Origin: Levilinea saccharolytica
GTDB lineage: Bacteria > Chloroflexota > Anaerolineae > Anaerolineales > Anaerolineaceae
Direction: 5' to 3'
Length of the DNA stretch: 64,000 nt
Assembly (NCBI RefSeq): GCF_001306035.1
Contig: NZ_LGCM01000065.1
Coordinates: 248,001-312,000, forward strand
Part shown: positions 3,974 through 36,352 of the stretch, piece after piece
How positions within the stretch are numbered: position 1 is the stretch's first letter
Layout: each line of letters starts with the position of its first letter
Made by a program: the position numbers and the translations under genes
Notes under the pieces: model-generated
The model's database searches: none
Seen by the model: the letters and a program-made list of their open reading frames with translations, nothing else
Told to the model about the DNA's origin: nothing

Positions 3974-3976
3974 CGC

Positions 3977-4819
3977 TTAGCCCCTTTCGGTGCAAACCAT
4001 GATGGATTCCAGATCGGCGGGGGTGACGGCCAGACCGTTGGCCCCCGCGGCGTCAGCGGCGCGCAGCAGCCCGCTGAACTCGCCCTTGCGCTCGTGCAAG
4101 CCGATGATGCGCTCTTTCAGGGCGGGGGGCAGGTCTTCACTGCGGCCTTCCACCTTGCGGTAGGAGGCCACGAAGGCGTCTTTGTCGCCGCTGGCGATGA
4201 TGTGCCCGTTCTGGATGTAGGTGATGTTGTCGGCGTTCTTGTCCAGGTCGGAGGTGATGTGGGTGGAGAAGAAAATGCTGGCGCCTTCGCGGTCCACGAT
4301 GTCCTCAAAGATGTGCAGCAGCTCATCGCGCGAGACGGGATCCAGGCCGCTGGTGGGTTCATCTAAGATGAGCAGCTCGGCGTGGTGCGAGAGGGCCAAC
4401 GTGAGGGCGAACTTGATGCTCATGCCCTGCGAGAGCTGCCGGATCTTCTTGTTGGGGTCGAGGCCGAAGCGTTGGAGATAGCTCTGGTAGAGGGGCTCAT
4501 CCCAGGTGGGGTAAAAGCGGCGGTAGACCGCGGCGATGGTTTTGAGCGCGCTTTGGGGGTAATAGTTGGCGGCGCCGAAGATGCAGGCGGTGCGCTGTTT
4601 GATGGCGAACTCGTGGGCGGGCATATCCAGGCCGAAGAACTGCACGGCGCCGCTGTCGGGGTGCACCAGGTTGAGGATGGATTTGAGGGTAGTGGTTTTC
4701 CCGGCGCCGTTGCGCCCGATGAAACCCATGATGCGCCCAGGCTGCACGCGGAAAGAGACGTCCCGCAGGTGAAAGCTGGGGTAGCGTTTTTCTAAATGGC
4801 TGACGGTGAGAGCGTCCAT
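3977..4819 (-). CDS. ABC transporter ATP-binding protein
   Basis: An ATPase of 280 residues. Walker A is GRNGAGKTTT (about residue 38), the signature is LSQGMSIK, and Walker B is LLILDEPTSGLDP, followed by an H-loop in FFSTHITSD. The start ATG at 4819 is preceded by AGGAG in a good position. The open frame runs further upstream, through the AbrB-type gene in another frame, and that extension is not coding. It pairs with the adjacent ABC-2 permease. The pattern (a regulator, an ATPase with an 'ITSDLDKNADNITYI' segment, and a permease) is typical of YtrB/EcsA-like exporters. Confidence 0.92.
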   Translation of the reverse strand: MDALTVSHLEKRYPSFHLRDVSFRVQPGRIMGFIGRNGAGKTTTLKSILNLVHPDSGAVQFFGLDMPAHEFAIKQRTACIFGAANYYPQSALKTIAAVYRRFYPTWDEPLYQSYLQRFGLDPNKKIRQLSQGMSIKFALTLALSHHAELLILDEPTSGLDPVSRDELLHIFEDIVDREGASIFFSTHITSDLDKNADNITYIQNGHIIASGDKDAFVASYRKVEGRSEDLPPALKERIIGLHERKGEFSGLLRAADAAGANGLAVTPADLESIMVCTERG

Positions 4820-4826
4820 GAGCGGG

Positions 4827-5084
4827 TCACTCCTGTTCTGAAGGTGGGGTGGGGGGTTCCGGCGGGCGGCCGCCCAGCAGGAACTGGAAGAATTCGGGGC
4901 TGCGCTCCAGCAGGGCTGAGGCTTTGATGAGGGCCAGGCCCTGTTCCAGATCGCCCAGGACGAGCAGCTTGTCGCCGACCTGGATGTTGAAATCGCGGCG
5001 GGCCTCGGCGGGGATGACGACTTGCCCGCGGTCGCTGACCGTGATGGCGCCGTAGAAGCGTTTACTGTCGGGAGGGTTGGGCAT
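4827..5084 (-). CDS. AbrB/SpoVT/MazE-type DNA-binding regulator
   Basis: A small protein of 85 residues whose central part ITVSDRGQVVIPAEARRDFN plus 'VGDKLLVL' is the swapped-hairpin AbrB fold. I chose ATG 5084 because the promoter on this strand (-35 at 5146-5151, -10 at 5124-5129) predicts transcription from about 5117, which makes the earlier in-frame ATG at 5123 untranslated. It is the first gene of the AbrB-ATPase-permease operon, stops 7 bp before the ATPase start, and probably regulates the operon. The C-terminal residues (FLLGGRPPEPPTPPSEQE) form a flexible proline-rich tail. Confidence 0.85.
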   Translation of the reverse strand: MPNPPDSKRFYGAITVSDRGQVVIPAEARRDFNIQVGDKLLVLGDLEQGLALIKASALLERSPEFFQFLLGGRPPEPPTPPSEQE

Positions 5085-5105
5085 GAGCAGATCCTCGCAA
5101 GATAA

Positions 5106-5151
5106 GTAAGATATACAAGACATATCTTACTACCCTTTGAGATTTTGTCAA
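5106..5151 (-). promoter_or_regulatory. Promoter with overlapping dyad operator for the AbrB-ABC operon
   Basis: On the minus strand a perfect -35 TTGACA (5146-5151) is 16 bp from TAAGAT (5124-5129). A perfect 9-bp inverted repeat, GTAAGATAT (5106-5114) and ATATCTTAC (5122-5130) with a 7-bp spacer, covers the -10 box and the start site. This geometry fits a repressor operator. Autoregulation by the encoded AbrB-type protein is the simplest idea but is inference. Confidence 0.7.
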
Positions 5152-5153
5152 GG

Positions 5154-5294
5154 GTGCGGCGGCTGAACGATATCGGCAAGAGCCCGTGGTGGCAGCTGTT
5201 CCTGCTGGTTCCGGTGGGGGGCATCGTTATCCTGGGGATTTTGTGGGCGCAGCCCGCCGTGAGCCTGCCGGAAAACGGCACACCCGCGGCGTGA
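5154..5294 (+). pseudogene. DUF805 membrane protein, C-terminal relic
   Basis: The plus-strand frame beginning at GTG 5154 reads VRRLNDIGKSPWWQLFLLVP and continues through one hydrophobic segment to a stop at 5292-5294. The R-R-L-x-D-I-G-K-S-x-W-W block is the hallmark near the middle of DUF805 (YhaH-like) membrane proteins, whose preceding ~70 residues with two membrane helices are missing here. The 5' part has been replaced by the promoter of the divergent AbrB operon. A strong terminator follows at 5329, as for a once-intact gene. A 46-residue product from GTG 5154 cannot be excluded. Confidence 0.65.
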
Positions 5295-5328
5295 ACGCGC
5301 CGGTTTTTTACCGGGGTTGACCCCAGGC

Positions 5329-5361
5329 AAGCGCCTTCCGTGCAGGAGGGCGCTTTGTTTT
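5329..5361 (+). terminator. Intrinsic terminator after the DUF805 relic
   Basis: An 11-bp stem, AAGCGCCTTCC (5329-5339) with GGAGGGCGCTT (5345-5355), contains one G-T pair. The loop is GTGCA and a TGTTTT tract follows. Confidence 0.8.
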
Positions 5362-5459
5362 GACGCTGGAATTGGGGAACAGGATTGATTCGCCCTGGCG
5401 GTGTCTGTATACTCTATTTGTTGATTCATTTCATCATGAATTCTTGAAGGGAGGTTGGC

Positions 5460-6209
5460 ATGCAGGAAACGAAATTTGCGCTGCGCAAGAAAAAGATCGG
5501 CTGTGTCTTTATAGGCTTATCGCTATTTTTTATCTTTGGCATCGTTGCGGCCGTCGCCAACATGATCCTGAATTTCTCCTTCAGCACCGTCCTCGGCAGC
5601 CTGGCGATCCTGCTTGTGTGCGGAGGTCTGGGGTATTTTTTGGTGCTGACCAGCCTTCTCAATAATCCGCCGACGGTCACCCTCAACGCGGATGGGATAG
5701 AGATCATCGGATTGGGAATGCTCGTCAGGCAAGCGGCTGCCTGGGCTGAAGTTGAAGCGGTGGAGGCTGTTTATCAGGAAATTCAGAAACAAAAAGCCCT
5801 CACGATTAAACTGCTGCCGCCCAAGGCGCCCCTCCTGATCCCAGAAAGCGCGGTGGACGATTTTGCGAATTTTTCGGCGGTGGTGAAAGCCCATTTTCTG
5901 GCTCATCAAGGCGCTGCGGTTCGGGCTGCGCAGGGAATCGCTATGAAAATGGAAAAGACCGATGTTTCTCCTGCCGGGAAACGCCCCACGAAACCATCGG
6001 GGGATGTGGTGTTTGATCGCGAGGAACGCATCGAGGCGCCGGAACTGGGGGCGACTTTTATCTATCAGATCTACACCGCTCCAGACGCCGCCAGCGCGCA
6101 GGCCTTCCTGGCAAAGACGCCTGTCCACGACGCACATGTGTACATCCTGGTGCACACGCCTGAAGGAATAACCTATTGCCGGGACGTGCAAGGGACGTAC
6201 ACGCAATAG
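5460..6209 (+). CDS. Hypothetical membrane protein with two N-terminal helices (PH-like core possible)
   Basis: A protein of 249 residues. Two membrane helices (about residues 15-38 and 45-65) are followed by a soluble part. That part begins TVTLNADGIEIIGLGMLVRQ and runs into AAWAEVEAVEAV, the strand order seen in small bacterial PH-like (STM3941-type) domains. The C-terminal ~60 residues (GATFIYQIYTAPDAASAQ onward) form a separate alpha/beta piece that I cannot assign. The start ATG 5460 has a strong AAGGGAGG at 5447-5454. It is monocistronic: a terminator lies on each side. No function can be named. Confidence 0.75.
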   Translation: MQETKFALRKKKIGCVFIGLSLFFIFGIVAAVANMILNFSFSTVLGSLAILLVCGGLGYFLVLTSLLNNPPTVTLNADGIEIIGLGMLVRQAAAWAEVEAVEAVYQEIQKQKALTIKLLPPKAPLLIPESAVDDFANFSAVVKAHFLAHQGAAVRAAQGIAMKMEKTDVSPAGKRPTKPSGDVVFDREERIEAPELGATFIYQIYTAPDAASAQAFLAKTPVHDAHVYILVHTPEGITYCRDVQGTYTQ

Positions 6210-6226
6210 AGATGGAATTTGAACCG

Positions 6227-6253
6227 AAAAGCCGCCAGCCTGGCGGCTTTTTT
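6227..6253 (+). terminator. Intrinsic terminator, first of a tandem pair
   Basis: The stem AAAAGCCGCCA (6227-6237) pairs with TGGCGGCTTTT (6241-6251). The loop is GCC and further Ts follow. It closes the 5460-6209 gene. Confidence 0.88.
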
Positions 6254-6262
6254 GGATCCGGA

Positions 6263-6294
6263 GACGCCGCGCAGAGGGGTGCGCGGCGTTTTTT
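6263..6294 (+). terminator. Intrinsic terminator, second of a tandem pair
   Basis: GACGCCGCGC (6263-6272) pairs with GCGCGGCGTT (6281-6290) and TTTT follows. It lies at the left border of the AT-rich island and insulates it from upstream transcription. Confidence 0.82.
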
Positions 6295-6406
6295 GCCCCC
6301 TTGACCCGGCCGATGATTGTATAATGAAGGGGTGGGGTGAGAGAAATTTTGACTCAAAGTGTGCTGAGAGATTCATAATCAGGGGATTGAAGGAAGCTAT
6401 CTTATT

Positions 6407-7156
<750 letters not shown>

Positions 7157-7169
7157 GGGAAATGCATCA

Positions 7170-8264
7170 ATGGAACCAAAAACGATACTCTGGCCGCTCG
7201 ATCCACATACATTGGGTAAGCATTCGGTTCTTCGTAATTATCTCAATGCCTGGTTTCCGATCCTCGGACAAAAAAACCAGCGTATTTTGATTATCGACGG
7301 CTTTGCAGGGCCAGGCCAGTACCAGGGCGGTGAAGATGGCTCGCCAATGATCGCACTAAAGGCGTTGGCCGATCATCGGGCGAAGAATTTAATCTCGTCC
7401 GAGGTTGTCTTTATGTTCATTGAAGAAAACCAAGAGAGGGCCAAACACCTAGAGAAACTAACTTCGTCATCAAATCTATGCTTACCTCCGAAATGTTCCA
7501 TCAATGTCATCAATGGAGTTTTTGACGAAACGATGACGCAAGCACTAGATCAGTTGGATGCCCAGGCAACACGATTTGATCCTGCTTTTGTCATGCTTGA
7601 TCCTTTTGGTGTCTCAGGTACACCAATGTCCGTCATTCAGCGAATCCTTCAGAATCCTAAGTCCGAGGTGTATATAACGCTTATGTATGAAGCGATCAAT
7701 CGTTTCAAATGCACACCAGAATTCGAGAAGCACTTGGATACGCTTTTTGGCACACCTTTGTGGCGTACTGGAATCAAGATTTCTGATCCAGCGATTCGGA
7801 AGAAATTTTTTTACGACTTATACGAAGCGCAACTTCGACAAGCAGGTGCAAAGAATGTGGTTCATTTTGAGTTGTATGAAGGGCAAAGATTAGTTTACGC
7901 GATATTCTTTGGTACACATTCTAATAAAGGTTGTGACTGTATGAAGCAGGCAATCTGGAAGGTCGCCCCGTTTGGAAACTTCAAGTTCTGTTCTTCCAAT
8001 ATAGGTCAGCTTCCCTTAAGTCCAGATTTCACCGATTTTTCCCAATTAAGGGACGCCTTACGAAAAAGCTTTTCGGGAAAAGGATGGGTCAAGATCGAAG
8101 ATGTTATGGATTTTGTTGCATCTGATCAGACAGACTTTCACACAGGACACTTGAAAAAGAAGGTTCTGGTTCCAATGGAAGATAATGGAGGAATTCTTAT
8201 TGATGCTTCTACCAGAAGTCGAAGACGCGTCTTTCCGGACGGAACAAAGCTGAGGTTTTTGTAG
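7170..8264 (+). CDS. tcmP: Three-Cys-motif partner protein TcmP
   Basis: A protein of 364 residues. PLDPHTLGKHSVLRNYLNAW and IDGFAGPGQYQGGEDGSP are the hallmark N-terminal blocks of TcmP, the conserved partner of DUF5131 three-Cys proteins. A further block, VMLDPFGVSGTPM, resembles a methyltransferase-like motif IV. The fold is probably Rossmann-like, but catalysis has not been shown. ATG 7170 is chosen over the longer open frame because it has AGGGGA at 7155-7160 and sits 13 bp after the DUF5131 stop. The pair probably acts together on a nucleic acid or nucleotide. Its island location suggests a mobile accessory, perhaps defensive, function (inference). Confidence 0.87.
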   Translation: MEPKTILWPLDPHTLGKHSVLRNYLNAWFPILGQKNQRILIIDGFAGPGQYQGGEDGSPMIALKALADHRAKNLISSEVVFMFIEENQERAKHLEKLTSSSNLCLPPKCSINVINGVFDETMTQALDQLDAQATRFDPAFVMLDPFGVSGTPMSVIQRILQNPKSEVYITLMYEAINRFKCTPEFEKHLDTLFGTPLWRTGIKISDPAIRKKFFYDLYEAQLRQAGAKNVVHFELYEGQRLVYAIFFGTHSNKGCDCMKQAIWKVAPFGNFKFCSSNIGQLPLSPDFTDFSQLRDALRKSFSGKGWVKIEDVMDFVASDQTDFHTGHLKKKVLVPMEDNGGILIDASTRSRRRVFPDGTKLRFL

Positions 8265-8304
8265 GATCACAATGTTAGGCTTGATTCACTAGAGTACAAA
8301 TAAG

Positions 8305-8456
8305 GTGTACTGTCCGAGGCTGATTTCAGCCGTCTTGATGGAGATTAATGAGGTGTGGCGGATTGGAAAAAAGTATTGTTCTGGCAAGTCATTCTATTGG
8401 AAAAGAACGATGGATGTTTCTGACTCGAATTTATAGAAAAAGAGCTACGCGATCAA
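8305..8456 (+). mobile_element. Left copy of a 152-bp IS256-like transposase-derived inverted repeat
   Basis: This copy is the reverse complement of 11701-11852 with 143 of 152 positions identical and no indels (hand alignment). In the plus frame from 8305 it reads VYCPRLISAVLMEINEVW and continues to a TAG, while the other copy has TGG there. The peptide matches the C-terminal 'RL..A.LMEINEEW..G++Y' segment of IS256/Mutator-type transposases. It is a remnant, not a functional transposase. The rest of 8265-8528 shows only a TATAAT at 8470-8475 and a ribosome binding site for the next gene. Confidence 0.65.
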
Positions 8457-8528
8457 CATCGAAAGTCTGTATAATTAATAGTTAGGTTGGTTGTTCAGAA
8501 ATATCAATGTTATTAAACGAGGGGCTAA

Positions 8529-9443
8529 ATGACAATTAATCTTTCGCCATTAACAGAAATAGTTATTATTTTTCTGTTTATTTATCTATTGGTTGCCATG
8601 TTCAGCCGCGAGGATTTTGAAAGATCTTTTTCAAAAATACGAACATTATATCAGGAGGCTTCTCTAAGGGTATCGAATTTAATTGTGGCCCCCTTTGCCC
8701 AAATTGTGAAATATTTCGACGCTACTGATTTGGAAATCAATGAGCGCATAAATAAGAATACAAGTTGGGAAGTAATTGCAAATAATATCTCCACGCTTGA
8801 CATTGCAAAAACAGATGAGCCATTAATTGCCAATCAAATTAAAATTGAAAAGATAGTCGGTAGCACGTTAGGCACTATAATATTTTTAGCAATGATTTAC
8901 GTAAACTCTTTGGAACTTACAGAAGCATTAAATAATATCGGTATCGAAGAAAATCCTCCTTCATTTCTAAGATTAGAGATGACCTATCGTGTAATGATTC
9001 ATACTTTTGGGATAGCAGTATCTAACGGAATCTATATTTCTGATCTCCTAAATAATACCAGCTTTACTAGCGCATCACATAACAGAGGGAGAATTAGGAA
9101 ACTGTTATTATTTTTGAGAATAGTTTGTATTGGGTTTACCTTGATCGTTTTGTTGTTGTTGACCATGAAAGATTCGACAATCCCATATTATGCTTTGGCT
9201 TTCCTTCAAATCCCATTAATGCTTACGTTAATGTTATCAGCGAATTACATCCACACAGGAGTAATTGTTCTATTTTATATTCTATTCTATGTCATAAGGT
9301 TATTGTTGTTTCTTTGGAATTTAGCAATATTTTTTACCTTTTGGGTAATGGAATCCCTGTTATACCTTCTTTTGATCCCTCTTCAAAAGATCGTTCATTC
9401 CTCTGGTAGATATCTATCAAAAATCATCAACAAAAAAGGGTGA
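8529..9443 (+). CDS. Uncharacterised multi-pass membrane protein paired with Roco GTPase
   Basis: I do not recognise the family of this 304-residue protein. It has an N-terminal helix (about 9-25), a soluble stretch (about 26-115) and a helix near 118-133. A second soluble part with polar and charged residues follows (about 134-190). Then come at least three closely spaced, strongly hydrophobic segments (about 198-216, 222-240 and 243-290). Start ATG 8529 has GAGGGG just upstream. The gene ends 7 bp before the Roco gene, so the two are almost certainly co-transcribed. It is AT-rich like the rest of the island. A membrane effector or sensor controlled by the GTPase is plausible, but that is inference from adjacency. 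Confidence 0.72.
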   Translation: MTINLSPLTEIVIIFLFIYLLVAMFSREDFERSFSKIRTLYQEASLRVSNLIVAPFAQIVKYFDATDLEINERINKNTSWEVIANNISTLDIAKTDEPLIANQIKIEKIVGSTLGTIIFLAMIYVNSLELTEALNNIGIEENPPSFLRLEMTYRVMIHTFGIAVSNGIYISDLLNNTSFTSASHNRGRIRKLLLFLRIVCIGFTLIVLLLLTMKDSTIPYYALAFLQIPLMLTLMLSANYIHTGVIVLFYILFYVIRLLLFLWNLAIFFTFWVMESLLYLLLIPLQKIVHSSGRYLSKIINKKG

Positions 9444-9450
9444 TTCCATT

Positions 9451-11529
9451 ATGGAAAATTCGGTTGCCGAACTAATAATGCAAGCAAAAGATGGTAATCA
9501 TGGCTTTTTGTCCCTTAAGGGCAAAAAACTAAATGAATTCCCCCTTGATATATGCACTTTAACAAGTATCCATATGTTGGACATTTCAGACAATAATATT
9601 AAAAGTATACCTGCTGAGATTCAAAATTTGACTAATTTAGTAGAGATAAATGCTAACGGAAACCAGATAGAGAATATTCCTACGGAACTCGGAAACCTCA
9701 AAAAATTAAAACGTCTCTTCCTAAAAGGAAATCCAATTCAACAATTACCTTCATCATTACGGGCACTCAAATTAGAACAAATCGACCTTCAAGGGAGCAA
9801 TCTTGGTATTCCCCCTGAAATTCTCACAAAGTCTACAAGTGCCGTTAGCCTTTTTGATTATTATTTTTCCAACGAAACACTCCCCTTGCGTGAAGCAAAG
9901 GTCATACTTGTTGGACAAGGTTCAGTAGGAAAAACATCCCTAGTAAATCGCTTGGTAAATGGAACATATAATCCACAAGAAGGCAAAACAAATGGCATTG
10001 GAATTACAAAATGGCGAGTTGATGTACAGCCAGAAAACAGAGAATTGTCCGAAACCATAAGTCTCAACATATGGGATTTTGGTGGACAAGAGATCATGCA
10101 CGCTACGCATCAATTTTTTCTCACAAAACGCTCACTTTATTTGCTAGTATGTAATGCAAGAAACTCGGAGTCAGATAACAAATTAGATTACTGGTTAAAA
10201 ATAATTCGTTCTTTTGGTGGAAACTCACCTGTAATAATTGTCGGTAATAAAATTGATCAGCACTCATTTGACATTGATAGACGTGGTTTGCTCAATAAAT
10301 ATCCCCAAGTAAAAGCAATTATTGATACTTCTTGTATTGACAATAGTGGTATTTCGAAATTGAAGGAGGCAATTTCTCAAGAAATTGCGAATTTATCTCA
10401 CATTTTTGATTTGGTACCGAAAAAGTGGTTTGATATCAAGGATAAACTTTCTGCCTTGGGTAAAAGCTATTTACCTTATGATGAATACAAGAAAATCTGT
10501 ATGAAAGAAGGAGTTTCATCCGTTACAGATCAACATACACTTATTGGATTCTTGCACGATTTAGGAACGATGATCTATTTTCAAGAAGAACCTCGTCTAC
10601 AAGAATTAGGTATTTTAGATCCCGAATGGGTTACAAATGGTGTTTACCAAATTATTAATTCCAATTCACTGTTTCAAACTTATGGCATTTTGAGTTTGAA
10701 AGATCTGGAAAGTATACTACCGCCAAGCGTATATTCCCGATCTCAATATACCTTTATTATTGATATTATGCAAAAATTTGAATTATGTTATCCTTTTGAC
10801 AATGACGCCAATCAATACTTAATACCAGATCTATTACGGAAGGATGAACCTGATACTGGTGATTGGCAAAATGCATTGACCTTTCAGTATCAATATAGTG
10901 TGCTTCCGAGCAGCATATTATCGCGTTTCATTGTTAGGATGCACCCATTAATAAGTAAAAATACAGTCTGGAGGAATGGAGTTGTTCTCATTGTTGATGA
11001 CCGACGTATAAGAGTTAAAGCAGATTATGATTTATCAAGAATAACTATAGAAATTGAAGGCGACGGTCTTAAGAGGGATGCCTTACAACAGATTCGCTCA
11101 CAACTTAAAGCAATTCACGAAACCATTCCCGGACTAGAAGTAACAGAGCAAGTACCAATTCCTGGTCATCCTGATATTTTTGTCACTTACAAATTACTTC
11201 TCAACCTAGAAAGTCGCAAAGATTTTAAACATTTTGTTGATAAATTAAATGATTATATTGATGTTCGAAATTTACTTGATGGGGTTGTATCGCCAATGAG
11301 TCAAGAAAGGCAGCACCCGCCAATCACTCGTCAAAAAATTTGGATATCTGTTTTGACATCCCCTAAACATTTTGGACAATTTGCTCTAGATATTTTTGGA
11401 CGTAGTGACGCAAAAGAATCTACGTCAATAATTGTCGGTTGGCTAATAATAATCGTAGTAATTCTCATTTGGACAGGCGTAATCTCGATTCAGACGATTG
11501 AATCTATTTGGCGTTTGTTTTTTCCTTAA
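9451..11529 (+). CDS. Roco-family protein: LRR-Roc-COR GTPase with C-terminal membrane anchor
   Basis: A protein of 692 residues. Residues ~18-130 are leucine-rich repeats (for example LDISDNNIKSIPAEIQNLTN). The Roc GTPase follows: Walker A GQGSVGKTS (155-163), switch II DFGGQE (209-214) and NKID (266-269). Residues ~330-560 form the COR dimerisation domain, with its characteristic LPPSVYSRSQYTF...MQKFELCYPF block. A last hydrophobic helix (about 657-678, SIIVGWLIIIVVILIWTGV) would anchor the C-terminus, with a short tail after it. Bacterial Roco proteins are G proteins activated by dimerisation. This one probably works at the membrane with the preceding gene product. The pair is bracketed by inverted IS-derived repeats and has low GC, which suggests horizontal acquisition. 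Confidence 0.93.
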   Translation: MENSVAELIMQAKDGNHGFLSLKGKKLNEFPLDICTLTSIHMLDISDNNIKSIPAEIQNLTNLVEINANGNQIENIPTELGNLKKLKRLFLKGNPIQQLPSSLRALKLEQIDLQGSNLGIPPEILTKSTSAVSLFDYYFSNETLPLREAKVILVGQGSVGKTSLVNRLVNGTYNPQEGKTNGIGITKWRVDVQPENRELSETISLNIWDFGGQEIMHATHQFFLTKRSLYLLVCNARNSESDNKLDYWLKIIRSFGGNSPVIIVGNKIDQHSFDIDRRGLLNKYPQVKAIIDTSCIDNSGISKLKEAISQEIANLSHIFDLVPKKWFDIKDKLSALGKSYLPYDEYKKICMKEGVSSVTDQHTLIGFLHDLGTMIYFQEEPRLQELGILDPEWVTNGVYQIINSNSLFQTYGILSLKDLESILPPSVYSRSQYTFIIDIMQKFELCYPFDNDANQYLIPDLLRKDEPDTGDWQNALTFQYQYSVLPSSILSRFIVRMHPLISKNTVWRNGVVLIVDDRRIRVKADYDLSRITIEIEGDGLKRDALQQIRSQLKAIHETIPGLEVTEQVPIPGHPDIFVTYKLLLNLESRKDFKHFVDKLNDYIDVRNLLDGVVSPMSQERQHPPITRQKIWISVLTSPKHFGQFALDIFGRSDAKESTSIIVGWLIIIVVILIWTGVISIQTIESIWRLFFP

Positions 11530-11700
11530 TGTAGTATTCCAGTATCCACAACTTAGCAAAGTGTGAACTTGATTGGCGGGAACTTGTAGCTTTTGAAAAA
11601 TCAAAAACATTATCCAAGTCCACCTTCCATATCAATCACTTGCTCCAGTTACAAGCAAAGGATCACTATTTGTAATTGTCCACCATTTATATTTATTCTC

Positions 11701-11852
11701 TTGATCGCGTAAATCTTTTTCCATAAATTCGAGTCAGAAACATCCATCGTTCTTTTCCAATAAAATGACTTGCCAGAACAATATTTTTTTCCAATCTGCC
11801 ACTCCTCATTAATCTCCATCAAGACGGCTGAAGTCAGCCTCGAACAGTACAC
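11701..11852 (-). mobile_element. Right copy of the 152-bp IS256-like transposase-derived inverted repeat
   Basis: This is the inverted partner of 8305-8456. In the minus frame it reads VYCSRLTSAVLMEINEEW followed by QIGKKYCSGKSFYWKR, the C-terminal end of an IS256-type transposase. The open frame continues on both sides (11649-11936) but without transposase similarity and without a plausible start. The rest of 11530-11950 holds no gene that I can support. A TATAAT at 11928-11933 probably serves the next gene. Confidence 0.65.
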
Positions 11853-11950
11853 ATCAAAACCGCGTAATGCAACCCTTTCTCGCCTGATTGAACACCAGCC
11901 GAATCCCCCACTTTCCCTCACTCGGCCTATAATCAAAGCATGGAGACCGT

Positions 11951-27617: not shown

Positions 27618-27655
27618 ATCGGGCGCAGTCCGTCACCGGGCTGCGCCCGATTTTT
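27618..27655 (+). terminator. Terminator of beta-helix copy 1
   Basis: ATCGGGCGCAGTCC (27618-27631) pairs with GGGCTGCGCCCGAT (27638-27651), followed by Ts. Nearly the same hairpin follows copy 2. Confidence 0.9.
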
Positions 27656-27700
27656 GACTCTTGCCTATTCTCAGAGCTGCAGGGGCGGGATTGAGGCCGG

Positions 27701-27774
27701 TTTTCGATTGTCAGCCGGGGGATCTTTGAGTAAGATCATAGCAGCGGTTTTAACCGGGGGAAATTGTATTGGCG
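27701..27774 (+). promoter_or_regulatory. Duplicated upstream region, beta-helix copy 2
   Basis: The stretch from TTTTCGATTG to TTGGCG aligns with 30480-30554 upstream of copy 3, sharing TTCGAT, TCAGCCGGGGG/TCATCGGGGG, GTAAGAT and GGGGGAAA. Retention of this block suggests a shared promoter or operator. I could not define standard -35 and -10 boxes in it. Confidence 0.45.
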
Positions 27775-27806
27775 CACATGGGCTTTTTGATTCAGGAGGC
27801 GTGGTT

Positions 27807-30374
27807 ATGCAATCTCGTTTCACTTTGATCCGGTGGCTGGCGGCGGCTGTGCTGCTGGTCAGTTTTCTGCCGCAGTTCCCCGCGCAGGCGCAAAGCGAAC
27901 CCCCCGGCGGCGACCTGGAGGCTGAGGCCGGTTTTTACCCCGACCCCGGCGCGTATTTTAAGGTGGGCAGCACGGCCTACGCGGTTACTGCCGCGGACTG
28001 CGACCCATCCCTGGCGGGCGAGCAGGCCTGCGACAACCCGCTGCAGGCAGCTGTGGAATTTTTGACGGCCCAGAACCTGACCCCCGCAAGCGGCAAGATC
28101 TACATCGGTGCGGGGGTGTACGACCTGGCGGCGGCCACAAACCCCGCGTCGAATTGGAGTATTGATGGGGGCATTTGGACCGCCTATCCGCCAAAGCTGA
28201 CGCTGGTGGGCATGGGTTCGGCCCTGGGCGGAGCGGCGACCACCGAGCTGCGCGGCAATATCAGCCTGTCTAACCTCGGCGCGCTGACGGTATCGAATCT
28301 GCTGATCCAAGGGGGTAGCCTCGCCACCGGCAATACCAGCGGGCTGATCACCTTGGATCGGGTGCAGGTGCTCAACAGCCCCGGCACGTGTATTTCGATT
28401 GGCGCTCACCAGGGATCGGTGGCGGCGTCGCAGGTGCTGGTGAACGGCTGCGCGGCGAGCGGCAGCGGCATTTTTGCCGACGTGACCGGCGGATTGAAGA
28501 TGACCGCCAGCCATTTGAATGCCGCCACGGGCGAGGGGCTCTTTTTGGTTGCCGGTGAGCCGGTAACTTTGCTGAACGTCTCCAGCCATATGAATGGAGG
28601 GGGCGGGATCGTGATTCAAAGCCGGCCGGATTCGGCCCCGAAAGTTTCCCTGACGGCGGTGAACATTACCCGTAATGAGGGTACGGGGGTGCAGATCGGC
28701 ACCCTTGGTGCGGTATCGGTGGACCGCAGTGTCTTTGCGAATAATAGCGGCATGGGATTGATGGTGATGAACATTAATCCCGAATCACCTGCACCGGTGA
28801 ATATTTTCCGCAGCCAATGGATCCGCAACAGCGGAGGCCTGATGGTGCAATCCGCCGGGCGCATCCTGGTGGACGGCATGCGCAGCGAATTTAACCAAGG
28901 ATCCCCGGTGATGTCGCTGGATAATATGGCTGGCTCACTGCCTATCCAAATCAGCAACCGCCTGGGAGCCAACACGTTGGCCAATAATGACGGCCCTTCC
29001 TTCATCATGAGCAATTCCAAGGTCGCGATGACAGGCGTGAACGCGGTGCGGAGCCAGGGTTTCCAAATCACGGCGCCGAATTCCGCTGTGACGGTCATGC
29101 GCAGCAGCATCACCGACAGCCAGTCGCATCCGGGGCTGATCATTATTTCAGGTGGGGCGACCACCCTTGCGGATGTACGGGTGAACAAGAACAACAGCGT
29201 GGGGGCATCGCTGGTGACCGCTGGTGCAGGCGGCTCCTTGCGCATCCTGCGCAGCCAGTTCAACGGGAACAGCGGCCCGGGGGTCAGCATCTCGACGCTG
29301 GGCCGCACGCAGATCAGCCAGGTGGAAGCATCGAATAACTCGGCGTTGGGAATGGAATTGGTGAACAACGGGGTTAACCCTACGGGCTGGTGGGTGACCC
29401 TTCAGCAAAGCACCTTCAACGGCAACAGCGGCGGTTATGGTTTGAGAGTGGCTACGACCGGCGGTGTTCAGGCCAAGAAGATTTCGGCTTCGAACAATAC
29501 CTCATACGGTATGCAGGTTGAATATATCGAACCGGCCCCCTTCCAGCTGACCGGCAAGCCGGGGGATAACCGGTTTGTGAGAAACGGTGCTATGGGTTTG
29601 GCCGCGTTGGGGGTGAGCAAACTGGTTCTTTCGGGTGTGGATGCCGGCCAAAATAATTCTTTCGGCGTGCAGGCCATAGGGGCAACCACGCAGGACTTCC
29701 AAATCACCAATGTTCAGGCGAACGCCAATAACAGTACCGGCATTTTGGCCATCTCAGGCGGGAGAATGCTGTTGAAAAATGCAGCCGCGGACGCCAACTC
29801 TGAAAAAGGGCTGATCGCGCAAACGAATTATTCCGACACGGCCAAACTGGACCTTTCGATTCTGTCTTCCCATTTTGACGGCAATGGGGTCAATGGGTTG
29901 GATCTGCGCACCAGCGGGCCGGTGCTGATGAACGGGGTATCCGCTTCTCATTCTGCGCTGGGCAGCGGCGCGGTCATCGCCGATAATGGGGGGCCGAATA
30001 TGACGGCGAAGGTGGAGATCTTGAGCACCTTGGGCCAGAACTACTTTGACAACAACGCCATGTTGGGCATGGATGTGGTCAACGCCCAATCCTTCAGCGC
30101 CAGCTACCTCTCGGTGCGCGGCAACGGCAAAAACAGCAACGTCCCGGGGCTTTTCCTGCGCGGGCCGGACGCTCCCGTGACGCTGACCTGTGCGGTGGTC
30201 ACGGGCAACCCGGCGGATGGTCTGCAAACGGATACCGGCGCCGCTCTGGTGAAGATTGTGAATGGGATGATGGACGGCAACACGCGCCTGGATCCCAGCA
30301 CATATGTAAATATCCGCTTGTTCAGTCTCGCAACCACCCTGGATTACAAACCCGGGGTGTGCAGCGGCTGGTAA
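27807..30374 (+). CDS. Secreted right-handed beta-helix repeat protein, copy 2
   Basis: A protein of 855 residues, the same length as copy 1 and alignable from end to end without obvious large gaps. The signal peptide is MQSRFTLIRWLAAAVLLVSF with cleavage after PAQA. Conserved elements include ADCDPSLAGEQACDNPLQ, GGVQAKKISASNNTSYGMQV, LTGKPGDNRFVRNG and the terminal DYKPGVCSGW. ATG 27807 is preceded by CAGGAGG (27793-27799); the open frame upstream of it is the intergenic region. It is a tandem duplicate of copy 1 that carries its own leader and terminator. The function is unknown, presumably on the cell surface. Confidence 0.85.
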   Translation: MQSRFTLIRWLAAAVLLVSFLPQFPAQAQSEPPGGDLEAEAGFYPDPGAYFKVGSTAYAVTAADCDPSLAGEQACDNPLQAAVEFLTAQNLTPASGKIYIGAGVYDLAAATNPASNWSIDGGIWTAYPPKLTLVGMGSALGGAATTELRGNISLSNLGALTVSNLLIQGGSLATGNTSGLITLDRVQVLNSPGTCISIGAHQGSVAASQVLVNGCAASGSGIFADVTGGLKMTASHLNAATGEGLFLVAGEPVTLLNVSSHMNGGGGIVIQSRPDSAPKVSLTAVNITRNEGTGVQIGTLGAVSVDRSVFANNSGMGLMVMNINPESPAPVNIFRSQWIRNSGGLMVQSAGRILVDGMRSEFNQGSPVMSLDNMAGSLPIQISNRLGANTLANNDGPSFIMSNSKVAMTGVNAVRSQGFQITAPNSAVTVMRSSITDSQSHPGLIIISGGATTLADVRVNKNNSVGASLVTAGAGGSLRILRSQFNGNSGPGVSISTLGRTQISQVEASNNSALGMELVNNGVNPTGWWVTLQQSTFNGNSGGYGLRVATTGGVQAKKISASNNTSYGMQVEYIEPAPFQLTGKPGDNRFVRNGAMGLAALGVSKLVLSGVDAGQNNSFGVQAIGATTQDFQITNVQANANNSTGILAISGGRMLLKNAAADANSEKGLIAQTNYSDTAKLDLSILSSHFDGNGVNGLDLRTSGPVLMNGVSASHSALGSGAVIADNGGPNMTAKVEILSTLGQNYFDNNAMLGMDVVNAQSFSASYLSVRGNGKNSNVPGLFLRGPDAPVTLTCAVVTGNPADGLQTDTGAALVKIVNGMMDGNTRLDPSTYVNIRLFSLATTLDYKPGVCSGW

Positions 30375-30394
30375 ACTGCATCTGAGATGGGCGG

Positions 30395-30433
30395 TCGGGC
30401 GCAGTCCGTCACCGGGCTGCGTCCGATTTATTT
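30395..30433 (+). terminator. Terminator of beta-helix copy 2
   Basis: TCGGGCGCAGTCC (30395-30407) pairs with GGGCTGCGTCCGA (30414-30426), then TTTATTT. It is homologous to the terminator of copy 1 apart from one G-T pair. Confidence 0.85.
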
Positions 30434-30479
30434 ACCGCTCGCCTGACCCCCAGGGCCGGCAGACGATCTGTTGCCCGCT

Positions 30480-30554
30480 TTCGATTTGTCATCGGGGGTG
30501 GTTTTGGGTAAGATTATAAGGATGTTTTTTGGCTGGGGGAAAATCGTAACGGCG
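30480..30554 (+). promoter_or_regulatory. Duplicated upstream region, beta-helix copy 3
   Basis: This aligns with 27701-27774. It contains GGGTAAGATTATAAGG and GGGGGAAAATCGTAACGGCG. The second element also matches 24985-24999 upstream of copy 1 (GGGAAAATCGTATTGG). Confidence 0.45.
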
Positions 30555-30586
30555 TATTCAGGTTGGATGGTTCAGGAGGCATTTTG

Positions 30587-33151
30587 ATGCAATCCCGTTT
30601 CACTTCGATGCGATGGCTGTTGGCAGCTGTGCTGGTGTGGGTCAGTTTTCTGCCGCAGTTCCCGGTGCAGGCGCAAAGCGAACCCCCCGGCGGAGAGATG
30701 GACGCTGAGGCCGTTTTTTACCCCGACCCCGGGGCTTTCTTTACGGCGGACGGCATGACGTACGCCTTTACACCGGCGGACTGCAACCCGCTGGCGGACG
30801 GCGAACAGCCTTGCGATAACCCGCTGCAAGCGGCGGCAAATGCACTTTTGGGCCTGAACCTGACACCCGTGGGCGGCAAGATTTACATCGGCGCGGGGGT
30901 GTACGACCTGGAGGGGGCCGCAGACCCTGGGCCTCACTGGGTGATCAACGGCACCGGCTGGACCTCTCTGCCCTCCAAGCTGACCCTGGTGGGCATGGGC
31001 TCGGCGGTGGGCAGCCCGATGTCCACGGAGCTGCGCGGCATCGTCAACCTCACCAACCTCGGTTCGGTGACGGTGTCGAACCTGCTCATCCGCTCCGGCG
31101 GTCTGGTGACCAGCAACATGACGGGAACGCTGAACCTGGAGCGCGTGCAGGTGATGGACGGCCCCGCCAACTGTGTGTTTATCGGCAGCCAACAGGGTGC
31201 GGTGACGGCGGCCCAGGTGGTGATCAACGGCTGCGGCGCGATTGGCATTTTTGCTGAAGCGACCGGCGGGCTGAAGATGACGGCCAGCCATATCACCGGC
31301 GCGGGCGGGAGTGGGATCAATTTAATCGTTGGGAATACGGTGACGATGCTGAATGTCTCCAGCAGTTCCAACGTCGGCGACGGCCTTTATCTGGTCGGCA
31401 TGCCGGATACCGCCCCGCGCGTCTCGTTGACGGCCGTCAGCACCGTCCGCAATCAAGAAGAAGGCGCTCAGGTCATCACCCGCGGCGCGGTTTCGGTGGA
31501 CCGCAGTGTCTTTGTGGGCAACGCGGGCGTGGGGCTGCTGGTGGATAACAGCGGGCCCGACATCAGCCAGCCGGTGACGGTGCTGCGCAGCCAATTCCTG
31601 CGCAACGCTGCGAGCGCGAACATTTATTCCAGCGGGCGCATCCTGATGGACGGCATTCGCAGTGAGGCGAACAGCGATTACCCCAACATCGTGCTGAACA
31701 ATTCCTGGGGCACCCAGCCCATCCAATTCACCAACCGGTTTGGTCCGAACGTACTGGCCAATAACGAAGGCACGGTGTCGTTATTCACGCAGGGGCAGGC
31801 CACGGTGACGGGCGTGAGCGCCGTGCACAGCCAGGGGATTGATATCGGCGCGTCGAACGGGTCTGTGACGGTCTCACGCGTCAGAATTACTGCCAGCCAG
31901 TCGGCCCCGGGGTTGGCGATCAATTCGGGCGGCAGGACCACCCTGGCGGATGTGCAGGTGAACCGGACCAACAGCGTGGGAATCACCGTCCTGGCCAGCA
32001 ATGAAAATGCCCCCATGCGCATCCTGCGCACCCAATCCAATGGGAACTCCGGCCCAGGATTCAGCCTGAACAACCCCGGCCGGGTGCAGATCAGCCAGGT
32101 GGAGGCCTCGAACAATGGAGCGTATGGAATGCTCCTGTCCAGCACTCCTTCGCAGCCCAAGGGCTGGTGGGTGACTGTGCAGCAGAGCAGCTTCAATTAC
32201 AACAAACCCGGTTTCGGTTTGAACATCGGCTCAACCGGCGGCGTACAAATGAAGAAAATATCGGCTTCGAATAACGGAGCCCAGGGTGCGCGGGTCGAAA
32301 TTCCAACGTCGGCGAATTTCCAGATGAGCGGCAAGCCGGGCGACAACGTGTTTCAGGGCAACGGCGGTGCGGGCCTGAGCGTGGCTGGCGTGGGCAAGCT
32401 GGTGTTGGCGGGGGTGGACGCCAGTTATAACACCGCGATGGGCGTGGAAGCGGCGGCCACATTACCGCAGGACTTCCTGCTGACCAACGTTCAGGCGAAC
32501 GCCAACGGTGTGGTGGGACTGTCTCTGAACACGGCCGGAACGATGCTGTTGAAGAATGTGGCGGCGGACGCGAATAACGTTACGGGGCTGTCTGCGGTCA
32601 ACCCGTATACGGCGGACACCCGACAAGGCGTCACCCTCCTCTCCAGTCACTTTGATATCAACCAAATCTTTGGGGCACAGATTGTGACCAACGGTCCGGT
32701 GCTGTTGAATGGGGTTTCGGCATCCTACACCAGAGAGCGATTTGGTCTGCAAGTTATCTATAGTAATCCGGAGGTCCCCGTTGAGAAGGTGGAATTCTTG
32801 AGCACCCTGGGCAAAAACTACTTTGACGGCAACGGCAGCAACGGACTGCTGGTCCTCGGCGCGAAATCCTTCACCGGCAGTTATGTGTCGGTGCGCAATA
32901 ACGGCCAGTTCATAGCCACGCCGGGCATGGGCGTTAGTGGGGTGGACGCCCCGGTGACGCTGACCTGCGCGGTGGTGACGGGTAACCCGGCAGACGGCAT
33001 ACAGGTGTCCATTGGCGCGGCTTTGCTGAAGATCGTGAACGGTATGGTTGAAGGCAACGCGCGGCTGGACCCAGACTTGTTTCAAAACGTCCGTTTGAAC
33101 GACCCGGGTACCACGTTGGATTTGAAACCCGGAGTGTGCAGCGGCTGGTGA
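30587..33151 (+). CDS. Secreted right-handed beta-helix repeat protein, copy 3
   Basis: A protein of 854 residues and the most divergent of the three. The signal peptide is MQSRFTSMRWLLAAVLVWVS with cleavage after PVQA. The N-terminal block is changed (FTADGMTYAFTPADCNPLAD) but keeps the C-x-N-P-L-A/x and NPLQAA pattern. Beta-helix turns run to the C-terminal LDLKPGVCSGW. ATG 30587 follows TTCAGGAGG. The divergence from copies 1 and 2 suggests an older duplication, with copies 1 and 2 separating later. Confidence 0.85.
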   Translation: MQSRFTSMRWLLAAVLVWVSFLPQFPVQAQSEPPGGEMDAEAVFYPDPGAFFTADGMTYAFTPADCNPLADGEQPCDNPLQAAANALLGLNLTPVGGKIYIGAGVYDLEGAADPGPHWVINGTGWTSLPSKLTLVGMGSAVGSPMSTELRGIVNLTNLGSVTVSNLLIRSGGLVTSNMTGTLNLERVQVMDGPANCVFIGSQQGAVTAAQVVINGCGAIGIFAEATGGLKMTASHITGAGGSGINLIVGNTVTMLNVSSSSNVGDGLYLVGMPDTAPRVSLTAVSTVRNQEEGAQVITRGAVSVDRSVFVGNAGVGLLVDNSGPDISQPVTVLRSQFLRNAASANIYSSGRILMDGIRSEANSDYPNIVLNNSWGTQPIQFTNRFGPNVLANNEGTVSLFTQGQATVTGVSAVHSQGIDIGASNGSVTVSRVRITASQSAPGLAINSGGRTTLADVQVNRTNSVGITVLASNENAPMRILRTQSNGNSGPGFSLNNPGRVQISQVEASNNGAYGMLLSSTPSQPKGWWVTVQQSSFNYNKPGFGLNIGSTGGVQMKKISASNNGAQGARVEIPTSANFQMSGKPGDNVFQGNGGAGLSVAGVGKLVLAGVDASYNTAMGVEAAATLPQDFLLTNVQANANGVVGLSLNTAGTMLLKNVAADANNVTGLSAVNPYTADTRQGVTLLSSHFDINQIFGAQIVTNGPVLLNGVSASYTRERFGLQVIYSNPEVPVEKVEFLSTLGKNYFDGNGSNGLLVLGAKSFTGSYVSVRNNGQFIATPGMGVSGVDAPVTLTCAVVTGNPADGIQVSIGAALLKIVNGMVEGNARLDPDLFQNVRLNDPGTTLDLKPGVCSGW

Positions 33152-33184
33152 GCTTTGGCCTGAAAGCGAAATAAAAGCAAAAAT

Positions 33185-33216
33185 GAGCGCAGTTCGGTGA
33201 CGGACTGCGCTCGTTG
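33185..33216 (+). terminator. Terminator of beta-helix copy 3
   Basis: GAGCGCAGTTCG (33185-33196) pairs with CGGACTGCGCTC (33201-33212) around a GTGA loop. An imperfect T-tract follows. It may also serve the convergent gene that ends at 33219. Confidence 0.72.
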
Positions 33217-33218
33217 AT

Positions 33219-34286
33219 TTATTCTGCCGGTTTGCGCCGGCGGCGCAGGCGCAGGAGAAGGCGCTGCCCCCAGGCACGGGCCCAGGCGCGCTGCGCGGCG
33301 CGCACAGCGGCGGCGCTGGGCGGGGTGCGGCGGTAGGCGGCGTGGATGTAGACCTGCACGGCCAGGCGCAGGGCAGTGGCCAGGCGCGGGTAGGCTTGCA
33401 GGTGCGGCTCGGCACGGCGCAGGGTTTCCCAGGGGGTCAGGTGGGCGGGCACATCCACACCGGCGACGGTCAGTTCCCGGCGCAGGGCGGCGTACAGGCG
33501 GGCGGCCTGGGCGGCGGGGGAACGGTCAGGGGGGATGCGCCAGCGGCGCAGGGCGGCGAAGACGGCGGCCCCCAGCAAAACAGCCCCCAGCAGCCAGCCC
33601 CAGGGGGTCTTCTGAGTCTGCGCGGCGCTTTGCGGGTGGGGGGTGGGGCTGGGCTGGCGGTTAGCGGAGGGCGGCTCCGGGTAGACGGGCGCCGGGAAGG
33701 CGGCGGTCGGCTCAAACTCCACCCAGCCGTAGCCGGGGAAATAGACTTCCACCCAGGCATGGGCGGCCGAGGCGGGCACGCGGTAGGCGCCGCGCTCAAA
33801 ATCGTATTGGCCCATGGCATAGCCGCTGACCACGCGGGCGGGGATGCCCTCGGCGCGCAGCAGGACGGTCATGGCGCTGGCGGCGTAGCTGCAAAAACCG
33901 GCGCGGGCGTCGAACAGGTAGTAATCCACCGCATCCTGATCGGGACCGGGCAGGGGGGTATCCAGGGTGTAGGGAAAAGCGCGCAGATAAGCCTGCACGC
34001 GCAGCACGCGGTCGTAGGGGAAGGGGGGATCCTGGGCGGCCAACTGCGAGGCCAGGTTCACCACCCGCCGGGGCAGGCTGGGGGGCAATTGCAGGTAGCG
34101 CGCCTGAATCTCCGGCGGGTAGCGATTTCCGGCGAAGCGCAGCTGCGTTGCGTCCAGTTGGAGGGTGTGGGAGAGGACGGTGTATTGGAGAGCCGTGCCG
34201 CGCACCCGCTGGGCGCTGCCGTCGGCCAGGGGCTGCAGGGCGGCCGCGCCGCTGAGCACCTGCACGGGGTCGTTGGCAGCGAACAA
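33219..34286 (-). CDS. TgpA-like transglutaminase, C-terminal half (5' part displaced)
   Basis: This is the C-terminal half of a membrane transglutaminase. The catalytic triad region is complete: Cys in RAGFCSYAASAM, His in AAHAWVEVYFPGYGW, Asp/Glu region in FEPTAAFP. A membrane helix (WGWLLGAVLLGAAVFAAL) and a C-terminal DUF4129-like helical domain follow. The open frame has only a TTG start at 34286; similarity to TgpA begins about there (GDLFAANDPVQV). The N-terminal membrane half expected before it is not here but lies at 35200-36160 on the opposite strand. It is therefore probably a broken gene, or a product of misassembly. Confidence 0.8.
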   Translation of the reverse strand: MFAANDPVQVLSGAAALQPLADGSAQRVRGTALQYTVLSHTLQLDATQLRFAGNRYPPEIQARYLQLPPSLPRRVVNLASQLAAQDPPFPYDRVLRVQAYLRAFPYTLDTPLPGPDQDAVDYYLFDARAGFCSYAASAMTVLLRAEGIPARVVSGYAMGQYDFERGAYRVPASAAHAWVEVYFPGYGWVEFEPTAAFPAPVYPEPPSANRQPSPTPHPQSAAQTQKTPWGWLLGAVLLGAAVFAALRRWRIPPDRSPAAQAARLYAALRRELTVAGVDVPAHLTPWETLRRAEPHLQAYPRLATALRLAVQVYIHAAYRRTPPSAAAVRAAQRAWARAWGQRLLLRLRRRRKPAE

Positions 34287-34384
34287 GTCGCCGCTGGAGC
34301 GCCAGCACAGAATGCCGCCAGCGGGGAATTTTTCGCCTGGGGCCCTGGGAACTGCGCAGCGGCGACCCTTTCGGCCTGTTCAGC

Positions 34385-35203
34385 GTGCGTCAGGTGACGG
34401 CTGACCCCCTGGAAATTGTGGTTTACCCGCCCCTGGCCCACCTGCCCCCCGATCTGCTGCGTCCGCGCAGCGCACCCGGCAGCCAGCGCCCCCTGCGCCA
34501 GCCGCTCAGCGCCGAAACCACCCAGGCCAGCACCACCCGTGATTACGCCCCCGGCGACTCTTTGCGCCGCGTGCATTGGCCCACCACCGCCCGCCGCGAA
34601 AAATGGTCGGTGAAGGAATTTGACCCCGAAGCCGCCGCACGGGTGTGGCTGATCGTGGACAGTCAGGCTGGCGTCCAGCGCGAGGCTGAGGGCCGCAGCA
34701 GCCTGGAAGATCTGATCATCACCGCCGCCAGCCTGAGCAGCCATCTGCTGCGCAGCGGTCTGGCGGTGGGCATCCTCGCCGCCGGAAACGCCCCCCTGCC
34801 GCCGCGCCCCGGCCCCCACAGCCTGTGGGTTCTGCTGCGCGGTCTGGCCGGTCTGAACGCAGGGCCCACCTCCCTGGGCAGCGCCCTGCAAGCGTTCCAA
34901 CCTCTGCTGCTGCCGCAAGACCTGTGCGTGGTGCTGACCCCCTCGCTCGACCCCGCCTGGAGCCGCCCGCTGCGCCTGTTGGCCCATCCCCAGGCCGTCC
35001 TGTGGGCCGCCGACCCCTGCCCGCCCGAGGTCCAATCCGCGCGTCTGCGCCTGACCGCCCAGGGCATCCCCACCGAGATTCTGCTCAGCCCCCAGATTCG
35101 CGTCATCCCCGCCGCCTACGGTGCGCTGCGCCGCTGGGAATTTCGCGCCACCGGCACCGGCCGCGTGGTGGTGCAGGCCCGCCCGCGCGAGGTGCAGCCG
35201 TGA
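34385..35203 (+). CDS. DUF58 domain protein, 5'-truncated
   Basis: This is the C-terminal ~270 residues of a DUF58 protein. The family core reads TTRDYAPGDSLRRVHWPTTA followed by KWSVKEFDPE (the R-x-Y-x-x-G-D-x-x-R-x-I/V-x-W signature), then a vWA-like part starting VWLIVDSQA. DUF58 similarity actually extends upstream of GTG 34385 to about 34310 (RGIFRLGPWELRSGDPFGLF), but there is no start codon there. The N-terminal membrane helices are missing. The frame breaks where the oppositely oriented TgpA C-terminal half begins. DUF58 normally sits in a moxR-DUF58-tgpA operon, as the overlapping GTGA with the next gene shows. Confidence 0.8.
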   Translation: MRQVTADPLEIVVYPPLAHLPPDLLRPRSAPGSQRPLRQPLSAETTQASTTRDYAPGDSLRRVHWPTTARREKWSVKEFDPEAAARVWLIVDSQAGVQREAEGRSSLEDLIITAASLSSHLLRSGLAVGILAAGNAPLPPRPGPHSLWVLLRGLAGLNAGPTSLGSALQAFQPLLLPQDLCVVLTPSLDPAWSRPLRLLAHPQAVLWAADPCPPEVQSARLRLTAQGIPTEILLSPQIRVIPAAYGALRRWEFRATGTGRVVVQARPREVQP

Positions 35204-36228
35204 AAGCCGCCCTGCGCGAACGCTGGCTGCTGTGGCTGCTGCTGGTGGCGGTGTGCCTGCCGATCAGCCTCAGCCTGGGCGACACCCCCGGCTTGTCATC
35301 TCCCCCCGCGGCGCTCAGCGGGCTGTGGCTGGGCCTGCTGGTGGGCGTTTTGCTGACCTATACCCGTTTTTCCGGCTGGGGGGCGGCCGCCTACAGCCTG
35401 ACCTTGGGGTTTGCCGCCGCCGCCCAGGCCGCCGGGCGCGTGCTGCCGCCGCTCAGCGCCTGGGTGCTGCCCCTGGGCATGGACCGCCTGACCTGGCTGA
35501 ACCTGCGCGTGACGGCTTTCGGTGTGCGCATGGGCGGCTGGTGGGGTGATCTGCTCGCCCAATCCGTTCCAGACCGCGGCCTGTGGACCTTCCTGGCCGC
35601 CTGGGGACTGTGGTGCCTGGCGGTGTGGCTGGTCTGGTGGGTGCTGCGCCGTCAAAACGCCTATGCCGCCCTGCTGCCGCTGGGGCTGGCCCTCATCTTC
35701 CAAACCGTCCGCCAAGGGCAAAGCGCTAACTTGTTGTGGGCCTTCGGGTTGGCGGCCCTGGCCCTCATCGCCCACTGCGCCTTTCTCCGCCAGGCCGCCG
35801 ATTGGCAGCAGCGCGGCCTGGATACCCTTTCCGAATTCAGCGATTGGGCCCTGGGGACCGTTGCCGCCCTGGTGCTGCTGGCCGGGCTGGCGCGCCTGAC
35901 CCCCCTGGCGGCTACCCCCCAGGGCTGGGACCAAATTCGCGATTTTTTCAACCCCCCGCCTGCCCCCAGCGCATCCTGGAGCAGTTTACCCGCGCAGGCC
36001 GCCCAGGCCCTCACCCCCATTCGTCTGGAAGCCATCGGTCACCCCCCCCCGCAGGATGAAGGCGTGGTGCTGTGGGTGCGCCTCAGCGACCCGCCCCCGC
36101 CGCCCCCCGAAGCCGGAACCGCCGCGCAACCGCCCCGCCGTTACTGGCGCAGCGCCGTGTACTTTGGTCGAACCGGCCATCCTCGAAGAAGAAGAAGAGG
36201 ACGACGCGAGCGGCGACAAAAAGGATAA
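35200..36228 (+). CDS. TgpA-like transglutaminase, N-terminal membrane half fused out of frame to nusA tail
   Basis: It starts at GTG 35200, overlapping the DUF58 stop (GTGA). About seven membrane helices follow (for example ERWLLWLLLVAVCLPISL and LWTFLAAWGLWCLAVWLVWW), then a periplasmic start that ends in PPRRYWRSAVY, the conserved segment before the TgpA 'Y-T-G-x-G-W' block. At about 36160 the sequence changes abruptly: the last ~22 codons (GRTGHPRRRRRGRRERRQKG) are an out-of-frame reading of the nusA 3' end. The transglutaminase half lies at 33219-34286 in inverse orientation. The product, if made, would be an inactive membrane fragment. Confidence 0.75.
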   Translation: MKAALRERWLLWLLLVAVCLPISLSLGDTPGLSSPPAALSGLWLGLLVGVLLTYTRFSGWGAAAYSLTLGFAAAAQAAGRVLPPLSAWVLPLGMDRLTWLNLRVTAFGVRMGGWWGDLLAQSVPDRGLWTFLAAWGLWCLAVWLVWWVLRRQNAYAALLPLGLALIFQTVRQGQSANLLWAFGLAALALIAHCAFLRQAADWQQRGLDTLSEFSDWALGTVAALVLLAGLARLTPLAATPQGWDQIRDFFNPPPAPSASWSSLPAQAAQALTPIRLEAIGHPPPQDEGVVLWVRLSDPPPPPPEAGTAAQPPRRYWRSAVYFGRTGHPRRRRRGRRERRQKG

Positions 36229-36352
36229 GAAGGGTTCTAAGAAGAAAAAGAAGAAACAGGTGGTCATTTCCTATGACCCCGACCGCGATATGACCATCGT
36301 CCGCAAGAAGCACAAACGCGGTGACGGAGATTGGAGTGATTGGGAGGCCTAA
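36161..36352 (+). pseudogene. nusA: NusA, C-terminal tail only
   Basis: The frame ending at the TAA 36350-36352 reads TLVEPAILEEEEEDDASGDK, a lysine run, then VVISYDPDRDMTIVRKKHKR and GDGDWSDWEA. This acidic/basic tail with 'YDPD.D....KK.KRG...W' is the C-terminus of NusA in Anaerolineae-like bacteria, and nusA is the expected neighbour of ylxR-infB. All core domains (NTD, S1, KH) are missing; the sequence 5' of 36160 is tgpA. So nusA is interrupted by a rearrangement breakpoint, or the contig is chimeric here. Confidence 0.75.

Follow-up and report, generated by a model that had tools for sequence, protein, structure and literature searches.

Apparent inversion of a transglutaminase gene in a Levilinea saccharolytica draft genome very probably reflects an assembly chimera of two separate loci

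With regard to the arrangement of tgpA, DUF58 and nusA, the draft genome of Levilinea saccharolytica (Anaerolineae, Chloroflexota) raises the question whether a chromosome was rearranged or a contig was assembled wrongly. The window, i.e., the whole stretch of DNA that was analyzed, comprises 64,000 nt of the 313-kb contig C1 of this genome, which amounts to 4.23 Mb in 65 contigs with a completeness of 97.65% and a contamination of 4.94%. A preliminary description had reported TgpA halves in opposite orientation together with a DUF58 gene and a nusA gene that both lack their 5' ends, and had attributed this either to a chimeric join introduced during assembly or to one inversion accompanied by deletions. 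The described layout is indeed present in the sequence and both joins exist, while the breakpoints, originally placed at ~34310 and ~36160, have to be shifted slightly (Table 1). Classification as TgpA-like is backed by the succession of a long N-terminal part, the hydrophobic character of which was judged by reading of the sequence, and a C-terminal half bearing the Transglut_core and DUF4129 domains. The name TgpA itself was not found in the texts returned by a literature search on this protein.

Table 1. Features around the two joins (positions refer to the window; falsity of the joins as judged in the text)
Feature	Position	Strand	Remarks
End of left block: beta-helix gene (+) and TgpA C-terminal half (-)	30473-34291	minus	reverse-collinear with G001:C11 11770-15593
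TgpA C-terminal half	33219-34291	minus	open frame; Transglut_core 2.1e-25, DUF4129 9.3e-08
Join 1, very probably false: reversed TgpA C-terminal half to DUF58	34291/34292		window equals C20 from 34292 on and differs before
Inverted microhomology at join 1	34292-34299		about 8 bp, CGCTGGAG
Overlap with C20 3' end	34292-34418	plus	100% over exactly 127 bases
Middle block: DUF58 3' part and TgpA N-terminal half	34292-36161	plus	1,870 bases
DUF58 3' part (C-terminal part)	34292-35203	plus	
TgpA N-terminal half	35200-36161	plus	
Join 2, very probably false: TgpA N-terminal half to nusA tail	36161/36162		window equals C22 from 36162 on and differs before
Overlap with C22 3' end	36162-36288	plus	100% over exactly 127 bases
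nusA 3' end (C-terminal tail)	36162-36352	plus	followed by ylxR, infB
Right block: nusA 3' end, ylxR, infB, rbfA-like gene and onward	36162-64000	plus	

When the organism's own genome was searched with positions 33219-36352 of the window as the query, two perfect matches of 127 bases were obtained, apart from the match of the window to itself and a small number of weak matches. One of them constitutes the last 127 bases of contig C20 (C20:52457-52583), with the 128th base no longer matching, and the other constitutes the last 127 bases of contig C22 (C22:41438-41564), where the match likewise stops at 127. At both joins, other contigs thus end with exactly k bases that are identical to the interior of C1. 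Among the 119 contig ends that were read in this genome (the 3' end of C45 and ten ends reading N being left out), none but these two lie within the 64-kb window. Co-terminal pairs of contig ends had 127 bases in common in 56 of 75 cases and mostly 126-130 in the others, and this dominant length is the signature of a de Bruijn graph with k=127. Contigs derived from such a graph meet at branch points by sharing 127 bases, and both joins are therefore graph branches at which C20 and C22 represent the other choice.

The alternative paths restore the genes that are broken at the joins. C20 carries the 5' part of DUF58 that is missing from the window, so that the N-terminus for which a search elsewhere in the genome had been recommended is located at the 3' end of this contig. 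Bridging C20 with the window from 34292 onward yields an uninterrupted DUF58 gene of 437 codons without frameshift or stop, the product of which (437 aa) shares 92% identity along its entire length with that of the sister genome introduced below. In the same manner, C22 carries the missing 5' part of nusA, and its connection to the window from 36162 onward results in an uninterrupted frame of 636 codons, again without frameshift or stop and 93% identical to the sister sequence over the 569 residues covered in the compared locus. In well-studied bacteria, nusA is essential or near-essential, and a second copy had been considered in the preliminary description. A search for the NusA family in the organism's own genome gave a single match; it resides on C22, where the frame stays open up to the last bases of the contig, and is devoid of the C-terminal tail. 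As this single match is completed by bridging, there is neither a second nusA nor a truncated essential gene, and the option of a further copy was ruled out. The repaired locus exhibits the standard order nusA-ylxR-infB-rbfA with intact nusA and without any notable difference from this well-known operon. TgpA is restored as well, except for a stretch that is absent from the assembly.

The sister genome, Levilinea sp. isolate D180_maxbin.003 (G001), stems from the same genus but from a different species and strain, and its assembly, named k141, was built with another k. On its contig C11 (JARKPO010000080.1) the last 6 kb of C20 are found collinear at 3919-9900, and the middle block follows at 9774-11644 with no break from C20. 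The reversed left block is encountered from 11770 onward, i.e., after the end of C20, the middle block and a gap, and collinearity extends down to window position 1, albeit with gaps in synteny. On another contig, C72, the last 5.9 kb of C22 (27117-32863) and window positions 36162-64000 (32864-60668) lie end to end, such that the end of C22 continues into the right block with base-exact collinearity. The sister species therefore follows the alternative path via C20 and C22 and not that of the window contig, with DUF58-TgpA intact on one contig and nusA-ylxR-infB on another. Judged from these alignments, the right block would truly follow C22, while the middle block would follow C20 and precede the TgpA C-terminal half after about 136 missing bases; the end of the left block would belong, as its reverse complement, directly after the TgpA N-terminal half.

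Both TgpA halves reside in one open frame of 916 codons in the sister genome, to which the C-terminal half from the window is 92% identical, and seven more distantly related genomes (G008, G013, G015, G022, G030, G036, and G046) likewise have them joined in a single frame. The missing middle amounts to 136 bp in the sister, where it encodes a proline- and alanine-rich linker and has a G+C content of 77% vs. 61% for the window. The gap of roughly 40 residues proposed in the preliminary description is thereby confirmed as such and extended to about 45 residues (about 136 bp, judged from the sister genome). A search of the organism's own assembly with the corresponding sister stretch did not reveal the missing middle; only its flanks matched.

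The repaired DUF58-tgpA locus is an ordinary pair as also present in intact form in the sister genome; the DUF58 and transglutaminase genes adjoin in the bifidobacterial PFNA cluster, too (PMC8430577). It differs from the known gene pair in that no moxR AAA-ATPase gene is situated directly upstream. Instead of the moxR that had been expected there, long reverse-strand frames occupy this site both on C20, where they comprise 934 and 898 codons, and in the sister genome, and these frames show DNA similarity to the beta-helix genes of the window. The latter, two adjacent beta-helix repeat genes at 27654-33151, have more distant DNA matches on C20 upstream of DUF58 and match one single gene in the sister (C11:12841-15593; 79% and 74% DNA identity), which suggests a putative tandem duplication in L. 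saccharolytica or a loss in the sister species.

Further differences between the two species are apparent in the left part of the window. Positions 3362-5295 and 6340-11911 have no collinear match in the sister genome and, as their flanks are matched on its contig C11 with 86-91% identity, represent species-specific insertions or losses. Within this part, inverted repeats of 152 bp (8305-8456 and 11701-11852, 94% complementary) flank a gene for an LRR-Roc-COR GTPase (9451-11529) and a membrane-protein-like frame (8529-9443). Copies of this repeat, 78-81% identical, also lie elsewhere in the same genome, often at contig ends, as well as at several sites of the sister genome, where the stretch between the repeat arms has no match; this stretch is possibly a mobile or repeat-bounded island. 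It is adjoined by a gene for a 391-aa protein without Pfam match (7089-8264), which by eye appears to resemble three-Cys-motif partner proteins.

Taken as it stands, the contig would describe a natural inversion fixed in the organism, with tgpA, DUF58 and nusA pseudogenized, and block order and strands conform to such a scenario. The supposedly lost 5' parts, however, are present in the very same genome, their last 127 bases being the same as in the window; bridging leads to intact frames, and a cell of this kind would have no complete nusA, because the sole NusA match is the one on C22 that lacks the tail. Nor is a single inversion enough, since DUF58 and nusA remain without their 5' parts upon re-inversion, these being located on C20 and C22, and since the sister genome carries the respective regions on two distinct contigs. 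A fixed inversion is thus next to impossible and was ruled out, as the DUF58 and nusA 5' parts on C20 and C22 fit to the base. Of the two original explanations, the chimeric join is the one that is upheld, because the joins fall, with single-base precision, where C20 and C22 have their 127-base ends and because the arrangement is intact in the sister, while one inversion plus deletions finds no support. We are nearly certain that the layout is an assembly chimera in which two separate loci, represented by window positions 1-34291 and 36162-64000, were merged via two false joins.

A minority strain, or one co-existing with others, could also harbor a real rearrangement, with other cells keeping the ancestral layout and the graph holding both paths. 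The 127-base overlaps do show both graph paths at each join, as mixed strains would give, and a strain-private rearrangement would be compatible with a comparison genome that belongs to a sister species and another strain. On the other hand, such an event needs two non-homologous joins plus the loss of about 136 bp, must link regions for which the sister genome has separate contigs and breaks nusA, DUF58 and TgpA at once; moreover, reciprocal joins would be expected from a balanced inversion, whereas C20 and C22 simply stop. We consider it very unlikely, and a subpopulation in which the tgpA and infB regions are linked and a 5'-truncated nusA exists beside the normal form is most improbable. 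No mobile element was seen in the join sequences, where the sole similarity consists of 8 bp at the left join, common to reversed TgpA and DUF58 when the sister genome serves as proxy for the missing bases, and of 1 bp common to TgpA and nusA at the right join. A biological end-joining event could show common sequence of this kind, too, and a fold-back chimeric fragment would likewise produce a join that is inverted and has short microhomology.

With the assembly chimera as the preferred explanation, C1 would constitute a chimeric path through the k=127 assembly graph, on which the assembler chose a wrong edge on either side of the DUF58/TgpA-N block of 1,870 bases. The true first locus would then lead from C20 via DUF58, the TgpA N-terminal half, ~136 bp with ~77% G+C and the TgpA C-terminal half into the reverse complement of 34291 to 1, and the true second locus from C22 via nusA, ylxR and infB, corresponding to the window from 36162 onward. 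The true edge was probably lost because the TgpA linker, with its very high G+C content, was poorly covered, and the false edges may stem from infrequent chimeric reads or fragments, one of them a fold-back at the 8-bp inverted match. We infer that the true edge across the linker would form a contig as short as about 390 bases, a size at which contigs are commonly excluded from bins.

Metagenome-assembled genomes are well documented to contain local assembly errors as well as chimeras (PMC7111523), while a literature search for read-level inverted chimeras provided nothing directly usable. As in known chimeric contigs of this type, false adjacency appears at graph branch points with flanking contigs sharing the 127-base k-mer, and genes are broken exactly at the joins while they are intact in relatives. 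The case described here differs in that two false joins flank one short block and thereby mimic an inversion inside a single gene. Its value is one of quality control only: in a draft genome that scores well, a 313-kb contig very probably joins two unrelated loci, gene neighborhoods across window positions 34291-36162 must not be used, and looking for k-base contig ends in the interior of other contigs provides a simple test for chimeras that works without reads. For the organism itself, the chimeric assembly would mean that no gene is split, truncated or inverted.
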